From a bacterium (GTDB taxonomy: Bacteria; Cyanobacteriota; Vampirovibrionia; Gastranaerophilales; Gastranaerophilaceae), in the NCBI GenBank assembly GCA_017541465.1, contig JAFXYZ010000059.1, positions 1 to 39,436 on the forward strand: a stretch of DNA of 39,436 nucleotides. Reading direction: 5' to 3'. Of the stretch, positions 9,605-37,561 are shown piece after piece (the stretch's first letter is position 1; each line of letters opens with the position of its first letter). A program made the position numbers and the translations under genes. The notes under the pieces are model-generated. The model was not told the origin of the DNA. It searched no databases and saw only the letters and a list, made by a program, of their open reading frames with translations.

Positions 9605-12600
9605 TTATACTTTATCAGCTTTGTAGAGAATTAATGCGTTCAAATCACCGTCTTCGATGACGATGTTACATTTCTTGCCGTTTTTGTCTCTGCCTTCGAG
9701 CCTGTATTCGCCGTCATCACCCGCAACTACTTCATAGTATTTCGCAGGGTTTGTGTTGTCTTTTCTTGCGTTCAGGAAAATTGTTCCGGGCTTAATACCT
9801 GCCTTCAGAGATTGTTTTGAATCGGCAAGTGCGTTTGACAGAGCAATATAAGACTGCCGTGTTCCGAAACTTTCCCATTCGAGAGTTTTTTGTTTTGCTC
9901 TTTCTAGCGGTTTGTAATTAGGAGTATTTGAACCGCTGGAATTGTAAAGTGTAATTACCACAGAGCCCTTGTCGTTATATCTCATAATTGCCTGAAATTC
10001 TTTATTGAACTGCTTTTTGTCCTGGTTTTTGTCATCCCACGTGCAATACTGGGGAAGGGTAACGGGAACACCGTCACTCAGGGCGCTCAGCTCAGGTCTT
10101 TGTCTCAGAGCGATTATGTCGTTCATCTTGTTATAAAATTCGCTGATGAATTTATAGTTGATATTTTTGTTTTCGAGCCATTCCCATCTGATAGGATTTC
10201 TGTTCTGCTGGTAAACGTTCTTTGAGGGGGTTTCAAATCCGCTTGCGCCGAGTTTGTCACCCGCAAAATCGGTTATGTTTCCGGGAAGGGTTACCATTGA
10301 TTTATACATTGTATAGAAGCGGTCAAACGCAGGCTCAAGTATGCTCTTCAGTATTTCTGCCTGGTATTTGTCCTGTTCTTCTTTTGTCAGTTTAATTTCT
10401 TTATTGTAATTGACCTGTTCAAATACGTTTGCAATGGCTATTTCAAAAGGTCTTACTCCGAAGAACTCTGCTTCTATGGGCTTGCCTTTAAATTCACCGC
10501 CTGCAATTTGTGCTATGGCATTATTTATAGCCGTTCTTGTCTTTACATCTTTGACTGTGCTGTTTACAGCCTGTCTTATTCTGATACCCATTGCGGCTTC
10601 AGGACCTCTTACGTCCTGGAAGTTTACTTTTTCTATGGGCTTTTGCAGTAATTTTGCGATGTTTTGTTTGTCCTGTTCTGAGAATTTGCCCATAAATACA
10701 CCCATATCGAGAGCGAGGAAGTGCATAACTCTCGGTTTGTCGTGGTTTCCGAGGAAGGTGTATGACTTAATTACACTGTCAATAGGTCCCTGGAACATAA
10801 ATCCGGGGTTCTGACACCAGGCTTTATCAAATTTTTCACGAAGCTCTTGGTTCTCTGATTTTTCGGCATTTCCGTTATGTTCACCCTTCTCAACACTTCT
10901 GAGGGTAAACATTTCGGGAAGAACAGAATAGAGGTAATCATAGTTTGCTATGGTTGTAATACCTGTTTCCATTAAGAATTTTCTTGTTGCATCGCTCTCA
11001 TCGTTAAATCTGCCGACTGAACCTTTTTTGAAGAAGGTATTTAAGTCGGTGATTTCGGCTGCCGTATATGCGTGAGGGTTAACAGAGGTTACGTTTTCTC
11101 TGTATTTACCCCAGAATTTAATTACACTGTCCCAGGCAGTATCGAAGGAATCAAGCCCTTGTCTTACGGCATCGAGGGAGGCTATATCTTTTGCAGCATC
11201 AATTCTCCAGCCCATGCCTGCTTCCGTTTTGTCTATTATGACATCAGCAAGCTGATAGGAAAGAAGGTCTGCATTTTCAAATCTGTGTTTTACAACGTTT
11301 GCGAGGTTTGTCAGCTCTTTATCCGAAATAGAATCAATACCTTTTTTGAGTAATCTGACAAGCTCTTTTGCTTCCGTAATACTGTCGGGTGTTCCGTAAG
11401 TGGTTATCCCGAGAGAGTTGAGAGTTGTATCTTCGGGTTTTACGTTTGAATAATCAAAATACCCCTGCTCATCAACGGTTATTTTTGCTTTCGGATTTAA
11501 ACCTTTAACCATTAAATACTGAGTTAATTCAGGTGTGATTTCGGATAAGATGTATTTACCCAAATCAGAAACCTGTCCCTGTGTCGATACATCAGCCTCT
11601 AAACCTGCCATAGCAATTATGCTGTGAATTTTTGGGGTTATTGAGGTCTTGTAAATATCATTCATTTCGGAATAAACCTGTTTGTATTCCTTCGGAACCG
11701 ATTTATCCCCTGCCATCATTAAATCGTATCTTGAAACACCAAGCTCTTGCTCATTGTTTGCTTTCTTTGATATGATAGGTGAACCCAAAACTCCGGAAAC
11801 ATCGTTTCCGACGGGAATTGCTTCAACGGGGAAGTCCATTGCGTTTCTTAAAATGAAATCTCTTGTCGTATAGTTGTTGTGAGTTCCTTCAGGGTTGATT
11901 TTATCTCTCATATCAACCGTCGTGAGCTTAGGGAACAAATATTCTTCGTTAATGACATTCTGCGCCAACTCTTTGCTCATTACCTCTGAAGCACTTTTGG
12001 GAAGAAGGTGTTTTTTAGATAGTTGTTTTATCTTTTCAACCACTGCTTCGGGTGATTTTTCGAGCCCTCTTAACTGTCTTGAACAGTAAGCCATCTGAAG
12101 GTCTTTTGTCAATTCTGTCCAGTATTTGCCTGAAGTTATGGCATAATCCTGAACGTTATATATTGAGCGCTGCATTTTTGCCATTTCTTCATTTCTGTAT
12201 TCTTCAGGAAGGGCTTCAATTTTTGCCTGGTCCTGATTTCCCAGATAGAAGTTGAGTTTTGCAATATCAACGTTGCCATCCCAAAGCTCAAAGCCTGCTG
12301 CGTTGCTCTTGTAGTCTATTGCAAAAGTTTCAAATTTCCCTATTTCTTTAATAGTTTCAATATCCGTAATATCGAATTTGTCGTTGAGTGATTTTTGCGC
12401 TCTCTGAACATTTTTTACGAGTACATCGGGATTAACCGCAAAATGATAAGGATAAACCATATCGTCATGCTTCTTTATATCAAGACTGTCAGGGTTTGTC
12501 TTAACGGAATAATCTTTTTTATCCGATGCTTCCAGCGGGTTCGCATTGTTTTTGTCGTAAGTTAAAATGACGTTCTTATCGTCTGTTTCCTGTTCTTTGC

Positions 12601-13729
12601 TGACTAATCTTGCGTCATAGAGCTGAACATAGGTCGGGGCTTTGGGGTTATAGTCGTTGTTTTTGACGACTTCCTTCTTTCCGTCAGAGCCTTCTTTAAT
12701 GGTTACGGGAGCATTGACGAATTTAATCCTCGTATCTTCACTGTTTTGGGGAATTACACCGAGTCTTTTGTATTCATCGGCTTTAAACCAGTATTTGTAC
12801 GGCGAATCATCAGGACCATGCCTCAGAAGGTTAGCAAAGTGAATACCCTGTAACCCTTCGTTTACGAGCGCAGCATCAGATACCCAGTCAATTCCGTGCT
12901 TAAACATTTCCTGCTGGAAGAGTCTGTAGTCCTTCATAGCTTCTCTTGGTACTTTTTCACCGCCCTTAACCTCGAAAGAGCCGAGCTGAGGGGCTAACTG
13001 ATAAGCATTTTGAGTCCAGTAAAGGTGTGAAGAAACCGTATCTTTAGTTAAAGGCATGCCTACAATTCTTGCATAGCCTTCTTTTTCAAGGTCATCGAGT
13101 TTATGAACAATACCCAAAAATCCGCCGCCGAGTTTGTTGATGTGTGTTCTGACGGAGGAAAGTGCTGTATTTCTTAAAGCCTGATTTACCGTTGTTTTGC
13201 CGTCTTTGAGTTCAACTCCGGGGTAATATTCATCGGGCATGATTAACTGCATTGCGCCTGCTTTGTTGATAATTGCGCCATTTGGAAGGACAAGGTTGAA
13301 CTTGTTGTCCGTTCTGTTTATATCTGCCTTTTTGTCGTCGTTTCTGTAGTCTGAAATGATGCTTCCGCCTATTACAACACCCGGATCAAAGGCATATTCT
13401 TTACTATTTTTGTTTTTTTTGTCGGTGAATACATATCTGTAGGCAAAGGCATAGTTACTGTTTGCTTTTGCCAAATCATCAAAATCAATATCGGGGCTGT
13501 TTCCTGAAGCATCAAGTCCTATAACTGTAATGGGTTTTCTCGTGTCAACATCATAATTTCCCGTTTTATTCTTCTGAACCGGGTAAATTTCGACCTCTGC
13601 GGTGTATTTCGTAGAGTCGTATAAATAGAAAAACTTATGCTTCTTAAATCCGTAATTATCCTGAAACTTCTTAATTCCGCCAAATGAAACTTGATTTTTA
13701 TTGTTGTAGCTTCCGTAAATATTCACCAT
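9605..13729 (-). CDS. Very large GH13 alpha-amylase-like protein
   Basis: A 1374-residue protein, over twice the length of a usual alpha-amylase. The GH13 catalytic signatures are present: nucleophile Asp 844 in GWRIDAAKD, acid/base Glu 892 in AAEITDL, and Asp 997 in FLGNHDKPR. A region-I-like stretch (GIDWVSDAALVNEG) is near residues 280-290, so about 550 residues separate it from the nucleophile where family members have a small domain B. There is no signal peptide; instead residues 1-18 end in QVSFGG, a leader also seen in other proteins here. The ATG at 13729 is chosen because AAGGAG precedes it, although only by three bases; an ATG at 13753 has none. It is probably an intracellular alpha-glucan-acting enzyme. 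Exact activity (hydrolase, debranching, transferase) is open. Confidence 0.82.
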   Translation of the reverse strand: MVNIYGSYNNKNQVSFGGIKKFQDNYGFKKHKFFYLYDSTKYTAEVEIYPVQKNKTGNYDVDTRKPITVIGLDASGNSPDIDFDDLAKANSNYAFAYRYVFTDKKNKNSKEYAFDPGVVIGGSIISDYRNDDKKADINRTDNKFNLVLPNGAIINKAGAMQLIMPDEYYPGVELKDGKTTVNQALRNTALSSVRTHINKLGGGFLGIVHKLDDLEKEGYARIVGMPLTKDTVSSHLYWTQNAYQLAPQLGSFEVKGGEKVPREAMKDYRLFQQEMFKHGIDWVSDAALVNEGLQGIHFANLLRHGPDDSPYKYWFKADEYKRLGVIPQNSEDTRIKFVNAPVTIKEGSDGKKEVVKNNDYNPKAPTYVQLYDARLVSKEQETDDKNVILTYDKNNANPLEASDKKDYSVKTNPDSLDIKKHDDMVYPYHFAVNPDVLVKNVQRAQKSLNDKFDITDIETIKEIGKFETFAIDYKSNAAGFELWDGNVDIAKLNFYLGNQDQAKIEALPEEYRNEEMAKMQRSIYNVQDYAITSGKYWTELTKDLQMAYCSRQLRGLEKSPEAVVEKIKQLSKKHLLPKSASEVMSKELAQNVINEEYLFPKLTTVDMRDKINPEGTHNNYTTRDFILRNAMDFPVEAIPVGNDVSGVLGSPIISKKANNEQELGVSRYDLMMAGDKSVPKEYKQVYSEMNDIYKTSITPKIHSIIAMAGLEADVSTQGQVSDLGKYILSEITPELTQYLMVKGLNPKAKITVDEQGYFDYSNVKPEDTTLNSLGITTYGTPDSITEAKELVRLLKKGIDSISDKELTNLANVVKHRFENADLLSYQLADVIIDKTEAGMGWRIDAAKDIASLDAVRQGLDSFDTAWDSVIKFWGKYRENVTSVNPHAYTAAEITDLNTFFKKGSVGRFNDESDATRKFLMETGITTIANYDYLYSVLPEMFTLRSVEKGEHNGNAEKSENQELREKFDKAWCQNPGFMFQGPIDSVIKSYTFLGNHDKPRVMHFLALDMGVFMGKFSEQDKQNIAKLLQKPIEKVNFQDVRGPEAAMGIRIRQAVNSTVKDVKTRTAINNAIAQIAGGEFKGKPIEAEFFGVRPFEIAIANVFEQVNYNKEIKLTKEEQDKYQAEILKSILEPAFDRFYTMYKSMVTLPGNITDFAGDKLGASGFETPSKNVYQQNRNPIRWEWLENKNINYKFISEFYNKMNDIIALRQRPELSALSDGVPVTLPQYCTWDDKNQDKKQFNKEFQAIMRYNDKGSVVITLYNSSGSNTPNYKPLERAKQKTLEWESFGTRQSYIALSNALADSKQSLKAGIKPGTIFLNARKDNTNPAKYYEVVAGDDGEYRLEGRDKNGKKCNIVIEDGDLNALILYKADKV

Positions 13730-13924
13730 AAACTCCTTAAAGACAAAGCCCATCAGTTATACAATACCCGGGATGAATTTTTGTTGCTTTTATAAACTCC
13801 CCTTTTAACAAAAATTTACACTAAAATCAGTTTAAGAAATGTAAAATTTTTATCCTCTGAAACCCTTTTAGGTGCAAATATTTTTATATTATTAATTTAA
13901 ACTTTTTGAGAAACGGTGATTAAG

Positions 13925-14210: not shown

Positions 14211-14603
14211 ATGAAACTTCAGTCCTTTGGCGCTACTTTAAAAGTTGATGAAAAATTATATAAAAACCTTCCTTCGGATGCTCCTGAAGGGTATGTTGAA
14301 GATATAATCGAAAAATACAAAAATTTTATTGATAACCCGAAAATCTCAAAACTTTTGGGTGAGGATACCATTGAACTTTCAAGAGCAAAGATGAGAGGAT
14401 ATAACGGATATTCCGTAGCTTTGAAAATCTCATCCCCAAATAGTGATGACGTTTTTGAGGGCGGTATTTTTACAAACAAAAAAGATGTATCTTATTTCCG
14501 CTTTGTTGAGCTCTCAAGACAGACATATCAGTATATTTTCTCAAAATTCGGTGTTCCCGAAAAATTTAACCGCTTCTGGTATATGGCAACTCACAAAAAA
14601 TAG
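14211..14603 (+). CDS. Unknown protein with N-terminal SFGA motif
   Basis: A 130-residue soluble protein that I do not recognise. It begins MKLQSFGATLKVDEK, placing Ser-Phe-Gly-Ala at residues 5-8, the same motif that ends the leaders of the larger enzymes in this window. The rest is mixed alpha/beta with many aromatic residues in the last third (SYFRFVELSRQTYQYIF). No cysteine or metal motif is seen. It follows the small membrane-type gene by four bases and is probably cotranscribed. It converges with the helicase-like gene with a single base between stops. Confidence 0.7.
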   Translation: MKLQSFGATLKVDEKLYKNLPSDAPEGYVEDIIEKYKNFIDNPKISKLLGEDTIELSRAKMRGYNGYSVALKISSPNSDDVFEGGIFTNKKDVSYFRFVELSRQTYQYIFSKFGVPEKFNRFWYMATHKK

Positions 14604-14604
14604 T

Positions 14605-17301
14605 TTAAAGCCACTTATTTACAATTCTCGGGGCGGGGTTTCTTTTCTCAATAAGCCGTCTTTTGTGTGCTCTTAAAAGAAGAATGTTTCCATCCTCAAC
14701 ACCAGTGTAGTAAATTTTGCAGTTGCCGAGGCTATGGCGCCAGAGTGATTTGAATTTCAGAATAATTTTTTTATTTTCCGCAAAAATTTCGGGCAGGGCA
14801 TGGTAGTCCTTCTGTTCGATTAACCCTAAATATGAGTTCCTTCTGACAAGAAGGTAGGTCGGATTGTTTATCGGTGTGAAAAATTCATAGAGACATTTTA
14901 TATAAATCTGATTTTCTTTATCGTTTAGAGATTTTGTATAAATGAATTTTGTCCCGTCAAAGTTGTTTATTATATTTGTTTCTATGTTTTCGGGCTTAAC
15001 AGTTATTTTCCCCTGTTTATAGAGGGTTTTGAGTATAATTTTGCATACTGTTTTGGTCATATTGAGGTTTGTTGCTCTTGAAATCATCGCAAGGGCGGGA
15101 ACAACCATAAAACAAAAGGCAAACAAAATTGAGAAAATAAAGAGCTGAGGTCTTATGATAACGGAAGTGAGCGATAAAATAAAGACCAGAGTGAATAAAT
15201 AATAGTATCCCGTCTGGTACATATAGGCGGGAAGCTCGTGCTGGGTTTCGAGCCCTTCTGTCAGCGAGGGGGAAACATTTCTTTTGTTTGAAATAAGATT
15301 ATCCCAGGCAGATTTTGTCTGTTTTCTGTCTTTTGCGCTTTTTATGTAATTTGAATTTAATTTTAATAAGTCTTTAGGGGAATTAACCGAACAGTTATTC
15401 GGAAAAATTCTGCTCAGAGTATTTGATATTTTGTTCGTATTAATATCAAGCCCCGAAATATACTCAAATCTTGATTTCAGACTTTCAAAATCGGGCATTT
15501 TCGAGAGCTTAAACAGTGATTTTGTGCGTTTTTGATATAATGAGGCGATAAAAATGTTATCCGTATTGTGTTCAAACGCAGAGCAAAGATGCCAGATATT
15601 AACCGTTCTCTCCGGGCTTTCAGGGGAATAATTCAAAATCTGGTTTCTTATTTTTACGCTGTTTTTATCCCTGCTTGAAGTTATTATGACTGTATTTATG
15701 TTTGTGAGGTTATGCTCCTCCGTAAAACAGTTGCCTGTTGAAATTATAGTGTTAATTGTTCCTAAATCGAGCATTTTTAAAAGAGATCGGATAAGGGCAT
15801 TTCTTATACTGTCTTTTGAATATACGGAAATATATCCTTCAATCTTCTCAAATTCAGTTGTTGTGATGTTATCCCTGCTGATATATTTCGTTCTTAAAAT
15901 ATCATAGAAGTTTTCCTCGAGGTCTTTCGGGATAAGCATTAAATCCTCTGAGATTACAACTGATTTAAACTTGTAATTGTTTTCTCTCATCAGCTTTAAA
16001 ACAGAGAGAATATTTGTTGTTTTTTCGTAATTGCCGCTGTTATTTATGTTATCCGTAATAATTAACTGCTTTAAGTTTTCCCCTAAAGTAACCTGTTCTG
16101 CGTTTGTGATTTCCCTGACTGAAGTCAGTTTCCCAAGGCTCGAAGTGATTATTTTATCCGCCTTCGGTGAATTTTCAAACATCAGAGAGTAATCCTGAAG
16201 TAAATCATATTTTAAAAGAGCATTTTTAATCTCTGTAATTTCTTCCTCGAGCTCGGGGAATTTCTCGCTGTTGTTGATAAGCCCGCTCACAAAGTGCTGT
16301 GCTTCAGCGGCTCTGAACTCAGGAATGTCATAGTCCTCTGCTTCAAGCAGGTCCATAAATGAATCGGGGATAACAAAGTTCTTTGATTTAAAGAGTGACG
16401 CTAAAGAGGTGAAGAACATCAGGTTCTTATAAATCTCTTTGGTGTTATCCTCTGCGTGCTTCATAAATGAAGACGAATAGAGTTTGTTTATTAAAGAAGT
16501 GTTTTGCGTTATCTGGGGAAGAAAAAGCGCAATTTTCTTATCCTGAAAGGATATTTCACCGAGTTCTTTATCCGTCAGCTCGGAAAAGTACGCAAAGTCG
16601 CGGTAGGGCGCAAAAACATTGTCTTTATAAAGTTTATCAAGTGTTATTGTTTTGGTTATTTTTCCAAAGAGCTTTTCATAGACTGTTCCCTCCTGGGAAG
16701 AAGCCACGGGTGGAAGATTCTCGCTCACCGTTATCTGATGAAGGGGAGATAGGTTATTTATCAGAAAAGTTATTATATCGAGCCTTTTTGTGTCTGAAAT
16801 ATCGGGTTCATCAAAGCAGAGAGTTGTGATTTTGTTATTTTTTAAGAGTTTTACTATTTCATTTGCCTTATCGAGCCTGTATTTTGTCGTTCCCGTAAAC
16901 CCGCTTTGGTGTCTCAGGGGCTCATATTCACTCGCCTGACCGCAAAAGGCATTGATTAAAGCCTGGTAAGTGATGATAGTAACGGCTTTCGGAAGTCTTA
17001 TATTAGTTGAGACACTGTCTCTGTATTGACTTTCGAGGAAGTGGGAATAAATTCTCGAGCGCCAGATAGAACGGCTTGAATGGGAGCTTGTTATGATAAG
17101 AGCGGGGCAGTTTATGTGTCCGATGATTTCAAGCGCAATATCAAACCTGTTTGCCCCCATAGGGGTTATGAGATTAATTTTTGAACTCGAAAGTGAATAT
17201 TCAAGGTCGCTGAATATTTCGCTCTGGTACTCTCTCCACTTTCCTTTGTAAGAAAAATTTAGTTGTTGAATTGTTGTAGTTTTTTCTATATCCGCAATCA
17301 T
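14605..17301 (-). CDS. Degenerate SF2 helicase-like protein with two membrane segments
   Basis: An 898-residue protein with the frame of a DEAD/DEAH superfamily 2 helicase but with key motifs lost. After WREYQSEI (22-29) the Walker A site reads TPMGANRF (46-53), lacking the GKT. Motif II survives in part as FDEPD (163-167); the motif III position reads ITVSENLPP. The linker APYRDFAYFSELTDKE (231-246) matches the PYQD-Y-F-E pattern of the family. The second domain retains the frame of NTVIITSS...NIWHLC but not the arginines of motif VI. Near residues 700-741 two hydrophobic helices follow, then a 157-residue soluble tail. It is probably not an active helicase. There is no Shine-Dalgarno sequence; a TGCTAGAAT box ends seven bases before the ATG. 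Role unknown. Confidence 0.7.
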   Translation of the reverse strand: MIADIEKTTTIQQLNFSYKGKWREYQSEIFSDLEYSLSSSKINLITPMGANRFDIALEIIGHINCPALIITSSHSSRSIWRSRIYSHFLESQYRDSVSTNIRLPKAVTIITYQALINAFCGQASEYEPLRHQSGFTGTTKYRLDKANEIVKLLKNNKITTLCFDEPDISDTKRLDIITFLINNLSPLHQITVSENLPPVASSQEGTVYEKLFGKITKTITLDKLYKDNVFAPYRDFAYFSELTDKELGEISFQDKKIALFLPQITQNTSLINKLYSSSFMKHAEDNTKEIYKNLMFFTSLASLFKSKNFVIPDSFMDLLEAEDYDIPEFRAAEAQHFVSGLINNSEKFPELEEEITEIKNALLKYDLLQDYSLMFENSPKADKIITSSLGKLTSVREITNAEQVTLGENLKQLIITDNINNSGNYEKTTNILSVLKLMRENNYKFKSVVISEDLMLIPKDLEENFYDILRTKYISRDNITTTEFEKIEGYISVYSKDSIRNALIRSLLKMLDLGTINTIISTGNCFTEEHNLTNINTVIITSSRDKNSVKIRNQILNYSPESPERTVNIWHLCSAFEHNTDNIFIASLYQKRTKSLFKLSKMPDFESLKSRFEYISGLDINTNKISNTLSRIFPNNCSVNSPKDLLKLNSNYIKSAKDRKQTKSAWDNLISNKRNVSPSLTEGLETQHELPAYMYQTGYYYLFTLVFILSLTSVIIRPQLFIFSILFAFCFMVVPALAMISRATNLNMTKTVCKIILKTLYKQGKITVKPENIETNIINNFDGTKFIYTKSLNDKENQIYIKCLYEFFTPINNPTYLLVRRNSYLGLIEQKDYHALPEIFAENKKIILKFKSLWRHSLGNCKIYYTGVEDGNILLLRAHKRRLIEKRNPAPRIVNKWL

Positions 17302-17317: not shown

Positions 17318-17419
17318 TAAATCAGCGAGGATATAAGAATTGTAACAATTTTGAAAATTTAGACAAAAAAAAATTTAACCGGACTTTAAACAGACACAAC
17401 CGAATTTTATGGAGTGAAT

Positions 17420-35932: not shown

Positions 35933-37561
35933 ATGTTAGCAGAGAGCAGAGAACAGCTTATTGCAGAAATTGATAGACGATTAGAAGATAAATTAATTGA
36001 ACAAAAAAATGCTGATTTATTAAAACGATTAATTAAAAATGCTGAAACTTTGTCAGATGCTATTGATATTGCTGAATTAGGCACAACTTGGAAGAGAACA
36101 GGGTTTCATTTCGATAAACGATTAGAAGGTCAAAAAGGGAATACCATTAAATATTTTAAAAAGAATGAAGATTTGAGCTTTTCTGATGGAAAAGGCGGTG
36201 TTATACATAAACTTATTATTGGAGATAATTATGATGCTTTGCTAAATCTTTTAATAGAATATCGTGGAAGAATTGATGTAATTTACATAGACCCACCTTA
36301 TGGTAAAGATTCTATGGGACAATTTGCTGATACAAATTATAATAATGCAATCACTAGAGATAATCTTCTTTCAATGTTATATCCTCGTTTGATTTTAGCA
36401 AAACAACTTTTATCAGTAGATGGCGCCATTTTTGTAAGTATTGATGATAAAAACCAAGCTTATGTTAAATGTTTAATGGATGAAATTTTTCGTGAAAATA
36501 ATTTCATTGCTTGCGCACCAAGAAAAACCGGTGCAGGTGATGCTGCAACAAGAGGTGATTCTGAGTTAAGAAAACCTTATGACTATGTATTGATTTATTC
36601 TAATTCTAGGGTAGAAGTATCTTTGAATAAAAAAATTGTTGGAGAAAAACAATACCCATTATCTGATAAACTTGGGTCATATTATTTAGCACAATTTCAA
36701 GCATCGGGTTCTGATAGTACAAGAAAAGCAAGACCTAAATTATATTACTCTATTTTTTTACAAGAAGATGGTTCACTTTCGCTAAATAGAAATTTAATGA
36801 CTATAAAAGAATTATTACCCTCAAAAGTTAATGGTGAAGATGGAAGATGGATGTGGAGCAAAGAAAAATTTGAAACCTCTGCAAAAAATGAATTAGTTTA
36901 TGATGGAGATAAATTAAAAAGAAAAGTTTATTATGATGAAAGCAAAGACCAAAATAAATACCAAGTTGAAAAAGCTTTTTTTGATGATTCATCTTTTAGA
37001 AATGCAGAAGGCACAAATTTACTTAATTCGATTATTGGAAAGGGATTATTTAAAAATCCAAAACCTGTCGGGTTAATAAAACATTTAATTAATTTAATAT
37101 CAAACGAAGATTCAATAATTTTAGACTTTTTTGCAGGTTCAGGAACAACGGGACAAGCAGTATTGGAACTTAATAAAGAAGATGATGGGAAACGACAATT
37201 TATTTTATGTACATTAAACGAAATTACTGATATAAACCCTAATGGAGTTGCTTACGATGTAACATCAAAAAGGTTGAAAAGAGTTATGGCAGGTATTTGT
37301 TATGATGAAACATCTGATTTTGAATGGATTAAAAAAAATGAACCTTATGGTGGAACTCTTGATGTTTATGAAATAGAATCCGTATCAAATGCTGAGAATA
37401 CAAAGGGGAAAACAGCTTTTGATGTCATTGATGAAACTCTTTACGGAAAAGAAAAATTTAAAACTTTAAAAGATAAAATTGATTGGGTATGTAGTAATTT
37501 TGATGGTACTCAAAGAATAATTGAATCTGATGAAGATTGGGTAAAAAGGTTGGGTGTCTAA
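35933..37561 (+). CDS. mod: Type III restriction-modification methyltransferase (Mod)
   Basis: A 542-residue adenine-N6 DNA methyltransferase and specificity subunit. Motif IV is DPPY at 120-123 and motif I is DFFAGSGTT at 398-406; with IV before I this is the beta class typical of Mod. The region between (about 190-370) holds the variable target-recognition domain. The C-terminus has NEITDINPNGVAYDVTSKRL and a tail that probably contacts Res. Res follows after two bases. A/T-rich codon use sets it apart from host genes. The weak ribosome binding site lies within a hairpin. The target sequence cannot be read from the protein. Confidence 0.92.
   Translation: MLAESREQLIAEIDRRLEDKLIEQKNADLLKRLIKNAETLSDAIDIAELGTTWKRTGFHFDKRLEGQKGNTIKYFKKNEDLSFSDGKGGVIHKLIIGDNYDALLNLLIEYRGRIDVIYIDPPYGKDSMGQFADTNYNNAITRDNLLSMLYPRLILAKQLLSVDGAIFVSIDDKNQAYVKCLMDEIFRENNFIACAPRKTGAGDAATRGDSELRKPYDYVLIYSNSRVEVSLNKKIVGEKQYPLSDKLGSYYLAQFQASGSDSTRKARPKLYYSIFLQEDGSLSLNRNLMTIKELLPSKVNGEDGRWMWSKEKFETSAKNELVYDGDKLKRKVYYDESKDQNKYQVEKAFFDDSSFRNAEGTNLLNSIIGKGLFKNPKPVGLIKHLINLISNEDSIILDFFAGSGTTGQAVLELNKEDDGKRQFILCTLNEITDINPNGVAYDVTSKRLKRVMAGICYDETSDFEWIKKNEPYGGTLDVYEIESVSNAENTKGKTAFDVIDETLYGKEKFKTLKDKIDWVCSNFDGTQRIIESDEDWVKRLGV

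Follow-up and report, generated by a model that had tools for sequence, protein, structure and literature searches.

A motif-degenerate member of a membrane-anchored XPB-like helicase family in a Gastranaerophilales bacterium: a candidate pseudohelicase

Introduction

Can a bacterial helicase lose its motor and still be kept as a protein of another kind? The question is raised by a reading frame in contig JAFXYZ010000059.1 of assembly GCA_017541465.1, whose 39,436 nucleotides, analysed as a whole, are called the window in this work. The host, a bacterium from the gut or rumen, is of the Gastranaerophilales type, a group of non-photosynthetic relatives of the cyanobacteria, and the gene is one copy of a widespread gene for a membrane-bound helicase. 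In an initial annotation, the product had been described as a helicase scaffold that has lost its ATP-driven function and may now bind DNA at the membrane.

The gene and its place in the genome

As initially annotated, the reading frame is intact over 898 residues; it is encoded on the minus strand, the plus strand over the same interval being full of stops.

14605..17301 (minus strand): whole gene, 898 aa, ATG to TAA; degenerate (motif-less) member of the membrane-anchored XPB-like SF2 helicase family

The gene is flanked by a divergent 5'-nucleotidase-like gene at 17414 on one side and by a convergent 130-aa ORF ending at 14603 on the other, and for this reason it probably forms a transcription unit of its own. 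Its codon usage and GC3 (0.41) match those of the neighbouring genes, and its alternative frames contain 73 (+1) and 65 (+2) stops. No other member of the family was found in the host genome (99.7% complete), where the window copy is single.

Two further genes of the window were noted. A DNA methylase gene (35933-37561, plus strand; N6_N4_Mtase, E 1.8e-32) has a GC3 of 0.14, compared to 0.32-0.42 in the other genes measured, a value so low that the gene was probably acquired recently. The other gene (9605-13753, minus strand) encodes a protein of 1382 aa that matches no Pfam or NCBIfam model; relatives of it (29-39% identity) are present in 14 of the 15 helicase-bearing genomes searched.

Descent and architecture of the family

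The helicase ancestry proposed in the initial annotation was borne out by several searches. The NCBIfam XPB profile matches the window sequence alone with an E of 4.8e-5, phmmer with the same single sequence gave a sub-significant match to an archaeal XPB, and whole-genome searches retrieved intact helicases that match over the full length, the closest of them with 31% identity over residues 16-897 (E 6e-132). This homology spans both lobes, the insert between them, the membrane hairpin and the C-terminal domain; the window protein is about 29% identical to all its relatives and falls in a tree clade of 62 rows. Intact members show Pfam matches to ResIII, DEAD and Helicase_C, and a profile of intact relatives finds XPBII in the PDB (E 2e-16). 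When scored against the NCBIfam XPB model (NF045503), the window copy reaches 22.1 bits and intact members 42-47 bits, all far below the curated cut-off of 610. XPB/Rad25, the SF2 protein known as XPBII in archaea and as a TFIIH subunit in eukaryotes, provides the best sequence and fold matches of this family. An insert between the lobes, the membrane hairpin and a C-terminal domain of its own set the family apart from XPB, and the window copy differs further in having no catalytic motifs. The following parts were delimited:

16582..17256 (minus strand): RecA lobe 1 (residues about 16-240), from the AF2 model and PDB matches to XPB; 35/88 near-invariant columns kept (residues 1-240)
16117..16581 (minus strand): helical insert between the lobes (241-395), from the AF2 model; 6/8 near-invariant columns kept
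15502..16116 (minus strand): RecA lobe 2 (396-600), from the AF2 model and fold search; 18/56 near-invariant columns kept
15088..15210 (minus strand): two predicted membrane helices (698-716, 720-738), from a hydropathy scan of the window copy and relatives; AF2 helices at 696-716 and 718-742
14608..15066 (minus strand): C-terminal alpha/beta domain (746-898), from alignments; no known family by sequence

By hydropathy, the hairpin sits at the same place in the window copy and in its long-form relatives. The two helices and the C-terminal domain had initially been described as gained or kept; they were kept, and the idea of a gain falls away, as both are common to the long-form family. For the C-terminal domain, no Pfam family common to the members was found, and the PDB matches were implausible, mainly to protein A constructs. 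A weak Pfam match of residues 747-800 to uracil-DNA glycosylase inhibitor (UDI), absent in the relatives scanned, was dismissed, and so was a match to FAD_SOX.

The RecA-like fold was recovered by structure prediction and fold search. The AF2 model of the window protein, based on an alignment with 30 relatives, has a mean pLDDT of 78, and its best PDB matches are to XPB of TFIIH (Z 22.7, rmsd 3.9 over 383 residues); Foldseek matched the model to archaeal XPB (E 9e-13), and the model of the intact relative L131 gave the identical leading PDB match (Z 19.5). Since the alignment includes intact helicases, the fold match of this model does not count as independent evidence, whereas the hydrophobic pattern reported below does.

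The family, defined here by its intact members, is an apparently undescribed group of membrane-anchored, XPB-like SF2 helicases, in which two RecA lobes with an insert between them are followed by a membrane hairpin of two helices and a C-terminal domain. More than 250 loci belong to it in GTDB genomes, with 252 candidates confirmed by tblastn; they occur in Gastranaerophilales, Bacteroidales, Elusimicrobia, rumen Alphaproteobacteria, Opitutales, Balneola, Lachnospiraceae, Carnobacterium and streptococci. Its distribution is patchy: in a sample of 383 genomes of the bacterial family, drawn from a larger group (about 1,040 genomes were looked up overall, overlaps included), 55 carry a copy, with 6/23 and 5/41 in two close genera. 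Judging from their motifs and hairpin, the intact members are probably membrane-tethered nucleic-acid translocases. Two variants were also observed, namely a shorter subfamily (about 815-870 aa; L005, L044, L053 and kin) in the same bacterial family, with the catalytic motifs kept and the hairpin absent, and a 1276-aa open frame (L004; G030:C41) with a C-terminal extension that carries several extra membrane helices.

The neighbours of intact members include a response regulator and a ribosomal protein in genus g8 and gpsA- and spoIVA-like genes, named by eye, in Lachnospiraceae. In g8, an OmpR-type response regulator lies directly upstream on the same strand in 10/10 loci fetched with flanks (L064-L066, L069, L072, L073, L075-L078), and the two genes possibly form an operon; at L065, an AsmA-like 1256-aa ORF adjoins the helicase. 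A reading of the intact family as a defence system was dropped, because these neighbourhoods consist of stable core genes and are not defence islands. The PADLOC defence models gave no match to the window copy and, for intact members, partial matches only, to the helicase parts of the PbeA and REase_I models.

Loss of the motor motifs

17224..17238 (minus strand): Q-motif-like WREYQ (residues 22-26); W, R, Y and Q kept, 33/33 relatives identical there
17140..17166 (minus strand): motif I / Walker A position (46-54), TPMGANRFD vs family AAPGAGKTT; K to R, T to F
17062..17088 (minus strand): motif Ia position (72-80), SSHSSRSIW vs family PTNTIKNQW
16798..16812 (minus strand): motif II position (164-168), DEPDI vs family DEAHH; DE kept
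16711..16725 (minus strand): motif III position (193-197), SENLP vs family TATPP
16594..16611 (minus strand): APYRDF (231-236), counterpart of family CPHQDF after lobe 1, from the alignment
15709..15741 (minus strand): motif V position (521-531), STGNCFTEEHN vs family GTQALLGEGWD
15631..15657 (minus strand): motif VI position (549-557), VKIRNQILN vs family NQMRGRAIR; both finger arginines gone

The elements that the initial annotation had read as retained, REYQ (23-26), the DE of motif II (164-165) and APYRDF (231-236), are all present, and the two losses that it had named are real: Walker A GxGKT is absent (PMGANRF where the family has APGAGKT), and so is QxxGRxxR of motif VI (KIRNQILN where the family has QMRGRAIR), with the Q, the G and both R gone. 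It had missed further losses in motifs Ia, III (SENLPP vs TATPP) and V. In total, five motifs (I, Ia, III, V and VI) and half of motif II are lost; the DEPD of motif II fits the generic DExD, and the family-invariant H-H of DEAHH is replaced by D-I. Of 47 motif positions that show little or no variation among 33 full-length relatives from its subfamily, the window protein keeps 13.

The initial annotation had also asked whether relatives share the degenerate motifs, and had named damage to this copy alone as a finding that would refute its reading. Taken as worded, such damage is what the alignment revealed: the relatives found have intact motifs and the window copy alone is degenerate, keeping 52 of the 110 columns in which at least 97% of 103 diverse homologues share one residue, compared to 105/110 in the next worst homologue. 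No full-length relative was seen to miss whole motifs; nine full-length rows were flagged for motif VI alone, of which one, L141, was read out and has QLRGRVIR. The remaining motif "losses" that a regular-expression search reported in relatives were, when read out, variants (GTQSLLGEGWD, GSGKT, GTKSLLGEGWD) or cut or interrupted ORFs (L038, L136, L149).

The losses are concentrated in the motor lobes, with 53/144 near-invariant columns kept in the RecA lobes vs 32/45 elsewhere (Fisher p 7e-5). Within the lobes, motif columns (13/46 kept) and other invariant columns (40/98) do not differ significantly (p 0.19), which indicates that the fine structure of the motor lobes has been lost in general, beyond the active site. 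The C-terminal domain has changed as well: R815T, R867G and R872N replace arginines that hardly vary, or do not vary at all, from phylum to phylum. The domain nevertheless stays basic, with a net charge of +14, compared to a family mean of +9.6. As these arginines are lost too, there is no retained active site from which a function could be read.

Fast evolution with an open reading frame

The terminal branch leading to the window copy is 2.79 changes per column long, where the median is 0.17. On the same contig, topA is ordinary, with mostly 62-75% identity to its counterparts in the bacterial family, and therefore it is the gene that has evolved fast and not the genome. The statement of the initial annotation that the gene is not simply decaying holds. 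In a neutral simulation of substitutions only, starting from the intact G217 gene, the sequence had on average accumulated 36 stops by the time its identity had fallen to 36%, and 27 when it stood at 53%, so that more than 25 would be expected under neutral drift, whereas the window copy has 0 in 898 codons. Moreover, always-hydrophobic columns are still hydrophobic in 91% of cases in lobe 1, 84% in lobe 2, 92% in the insert and 92% in the C-terminal domain, against a background of 38%. Plain neutral decay does not fit the absence of stops, the normal codon usage and the kept hydrophobic core. These features argue for a folded protein that would have been under selection over most of the branch, a statement about past and not present-day selection. 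Against relatives as distant as these, at 29% identity, dN/dS would be saturated.

A related explanation is that missense decay set in late, the helicase role having been lost recently or the protein being merely tolerated, with no present function. Within the clade the gene is dispensable and its occurrence patchy, as the counts given above illustrate, the window copy stands alone at the end of a very long branch, and conserved sites of the C-terminal domain were lost as well, all of which would suit this view. However, a protein that has diverged to about 29% identity to all its relatives has done so without a stop or frameshift and with its hydrophobic pattern kept, and its losses are concentrated in the motor lobes; we regard late decay as unlikely, though it deserves serious attention. 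The genus of the host is represented by 1 genome. Three genera that rank among the closest in topA were also covered: no degenerate copy was present among the copies found in g6 and g57, and g19 is without any copy. Peptides specific to the window copy retrieved no close relatives from the genome contigs or viral contigs scanned, nor did a viral scan with the family alignment retrieve any. The motif-degenerate state is thus known from a single orthologue, in which frame and core are kept.

Discussion

Our findings favour, with moderate confidence, the view that the window protein is an ATPase-dead pseudohelicase derived from a membrane-anchored XPB-like SF2 family and that it would now work as a membrane-tethered scaffold or regulator. 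With two RecA-like lobes and lost catalytic motifs, it has the architecture expected of a pseudohelicase. The sequence shows that it descends from intact helicases and has lost most of their catalytic and nucleic-acid-contact motif residues, while the open frame, the hydrophobic cores of both lobes, the hairpin and the C-terminal domain were retained. According to the proposed mechanism, ATP hydrolysis and nucleic-acid unwinding would no longer be possible, and the folded two-lobe body at the membrane may serve as an ATP-independent scaffold or regulator that binds a partner, more likely a protein than DNA.

The preference for a protein partner bears on the role first suggested for this gene, a DNA-binding anchor at the membrane. 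Helicase ancestry, the membrane hairpin and the still basic C-terminal domain would agree with such an anchor, but the ATP site, the nucleic-acid contact residues of motifs Ia and V and the three family-wide C-terminal arginines are gone, and the proposal, which found little support, appears improbable to us. Even less probable is a nucleotide-binding sensor that still binds an adenine nucleotide and switches shape without hydrolysis or unwinding: the Q motif (5/5 positions), D164 and E165, and G49 and A50 of the P-loop are kept, whereas the residues of the P-loop that grip the phosphates are gone (its final glycine is lost, Lys is replaced by Arg and Thr by Phe), as are the motif VI arginines. 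An assembly error, chimera or contamination in this metagenome-derived contig, conceivable for a genome of 74 contigs, is hardly credible given 99.7% completeness and 1.4% contamination, the ordinary topA on the same contig, the absence of frameshifts, codon usage like that of the neighbours, and motifs changed while core residues are kept, a pattern not expected from errors.

Pseudohelicases are known mainly from eukaryotes and from multi-subunit machines. Two of these proteins invite comparison: Utp25/Def, which, unlike the window protein, is not known to have membrane helices, and XPF, whose helicase-like domain is not known to have ATPase activity. Utp25/Def has a DEAD-box helicase fold in which the DEAD-box motifs were shown to be dispensable (PMC9539457), and the SF2 helicase-like domain of XPF mediates protein contacts, in SLX4 binding and recruitment (PMC5510004). 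The former is a precedent for the way in which the window copy may work, but it is a eukaryotic ribosome-assembly protein from another SF2 branch; the helicase-like domain of XPF, unlike the window protein, is soluble and fused to a nuclease. The direct homologues are the intact Gastranaerophilales members (e.g. L131 = G217; L084 = G380), which have the same length, insert, hairpin and C-terminal domain and, unlike the window copy, all catalytic motifs intact.

The case is thus one of a single-copy bacterial helicase that is without its motor motifs and has kept its frame, core and membrane anchor, within a family that is widespread, membrane-anchored and, in its intact form, apparently undescribed. 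Since more than 100 intact homologues are available for comparison, the switch from motor to scaffold is testable. We propose, tentatively and with less assurance than the pseudohelicase itself, that the gene represents a natural single-copy conversion, in which a helicase became a motor-free structural or regulatory membrane protein and the ancestral helicase disappeared from the genome. If true, such a motor turned pseudohelicase could be studied side by side with its many intact relatives.
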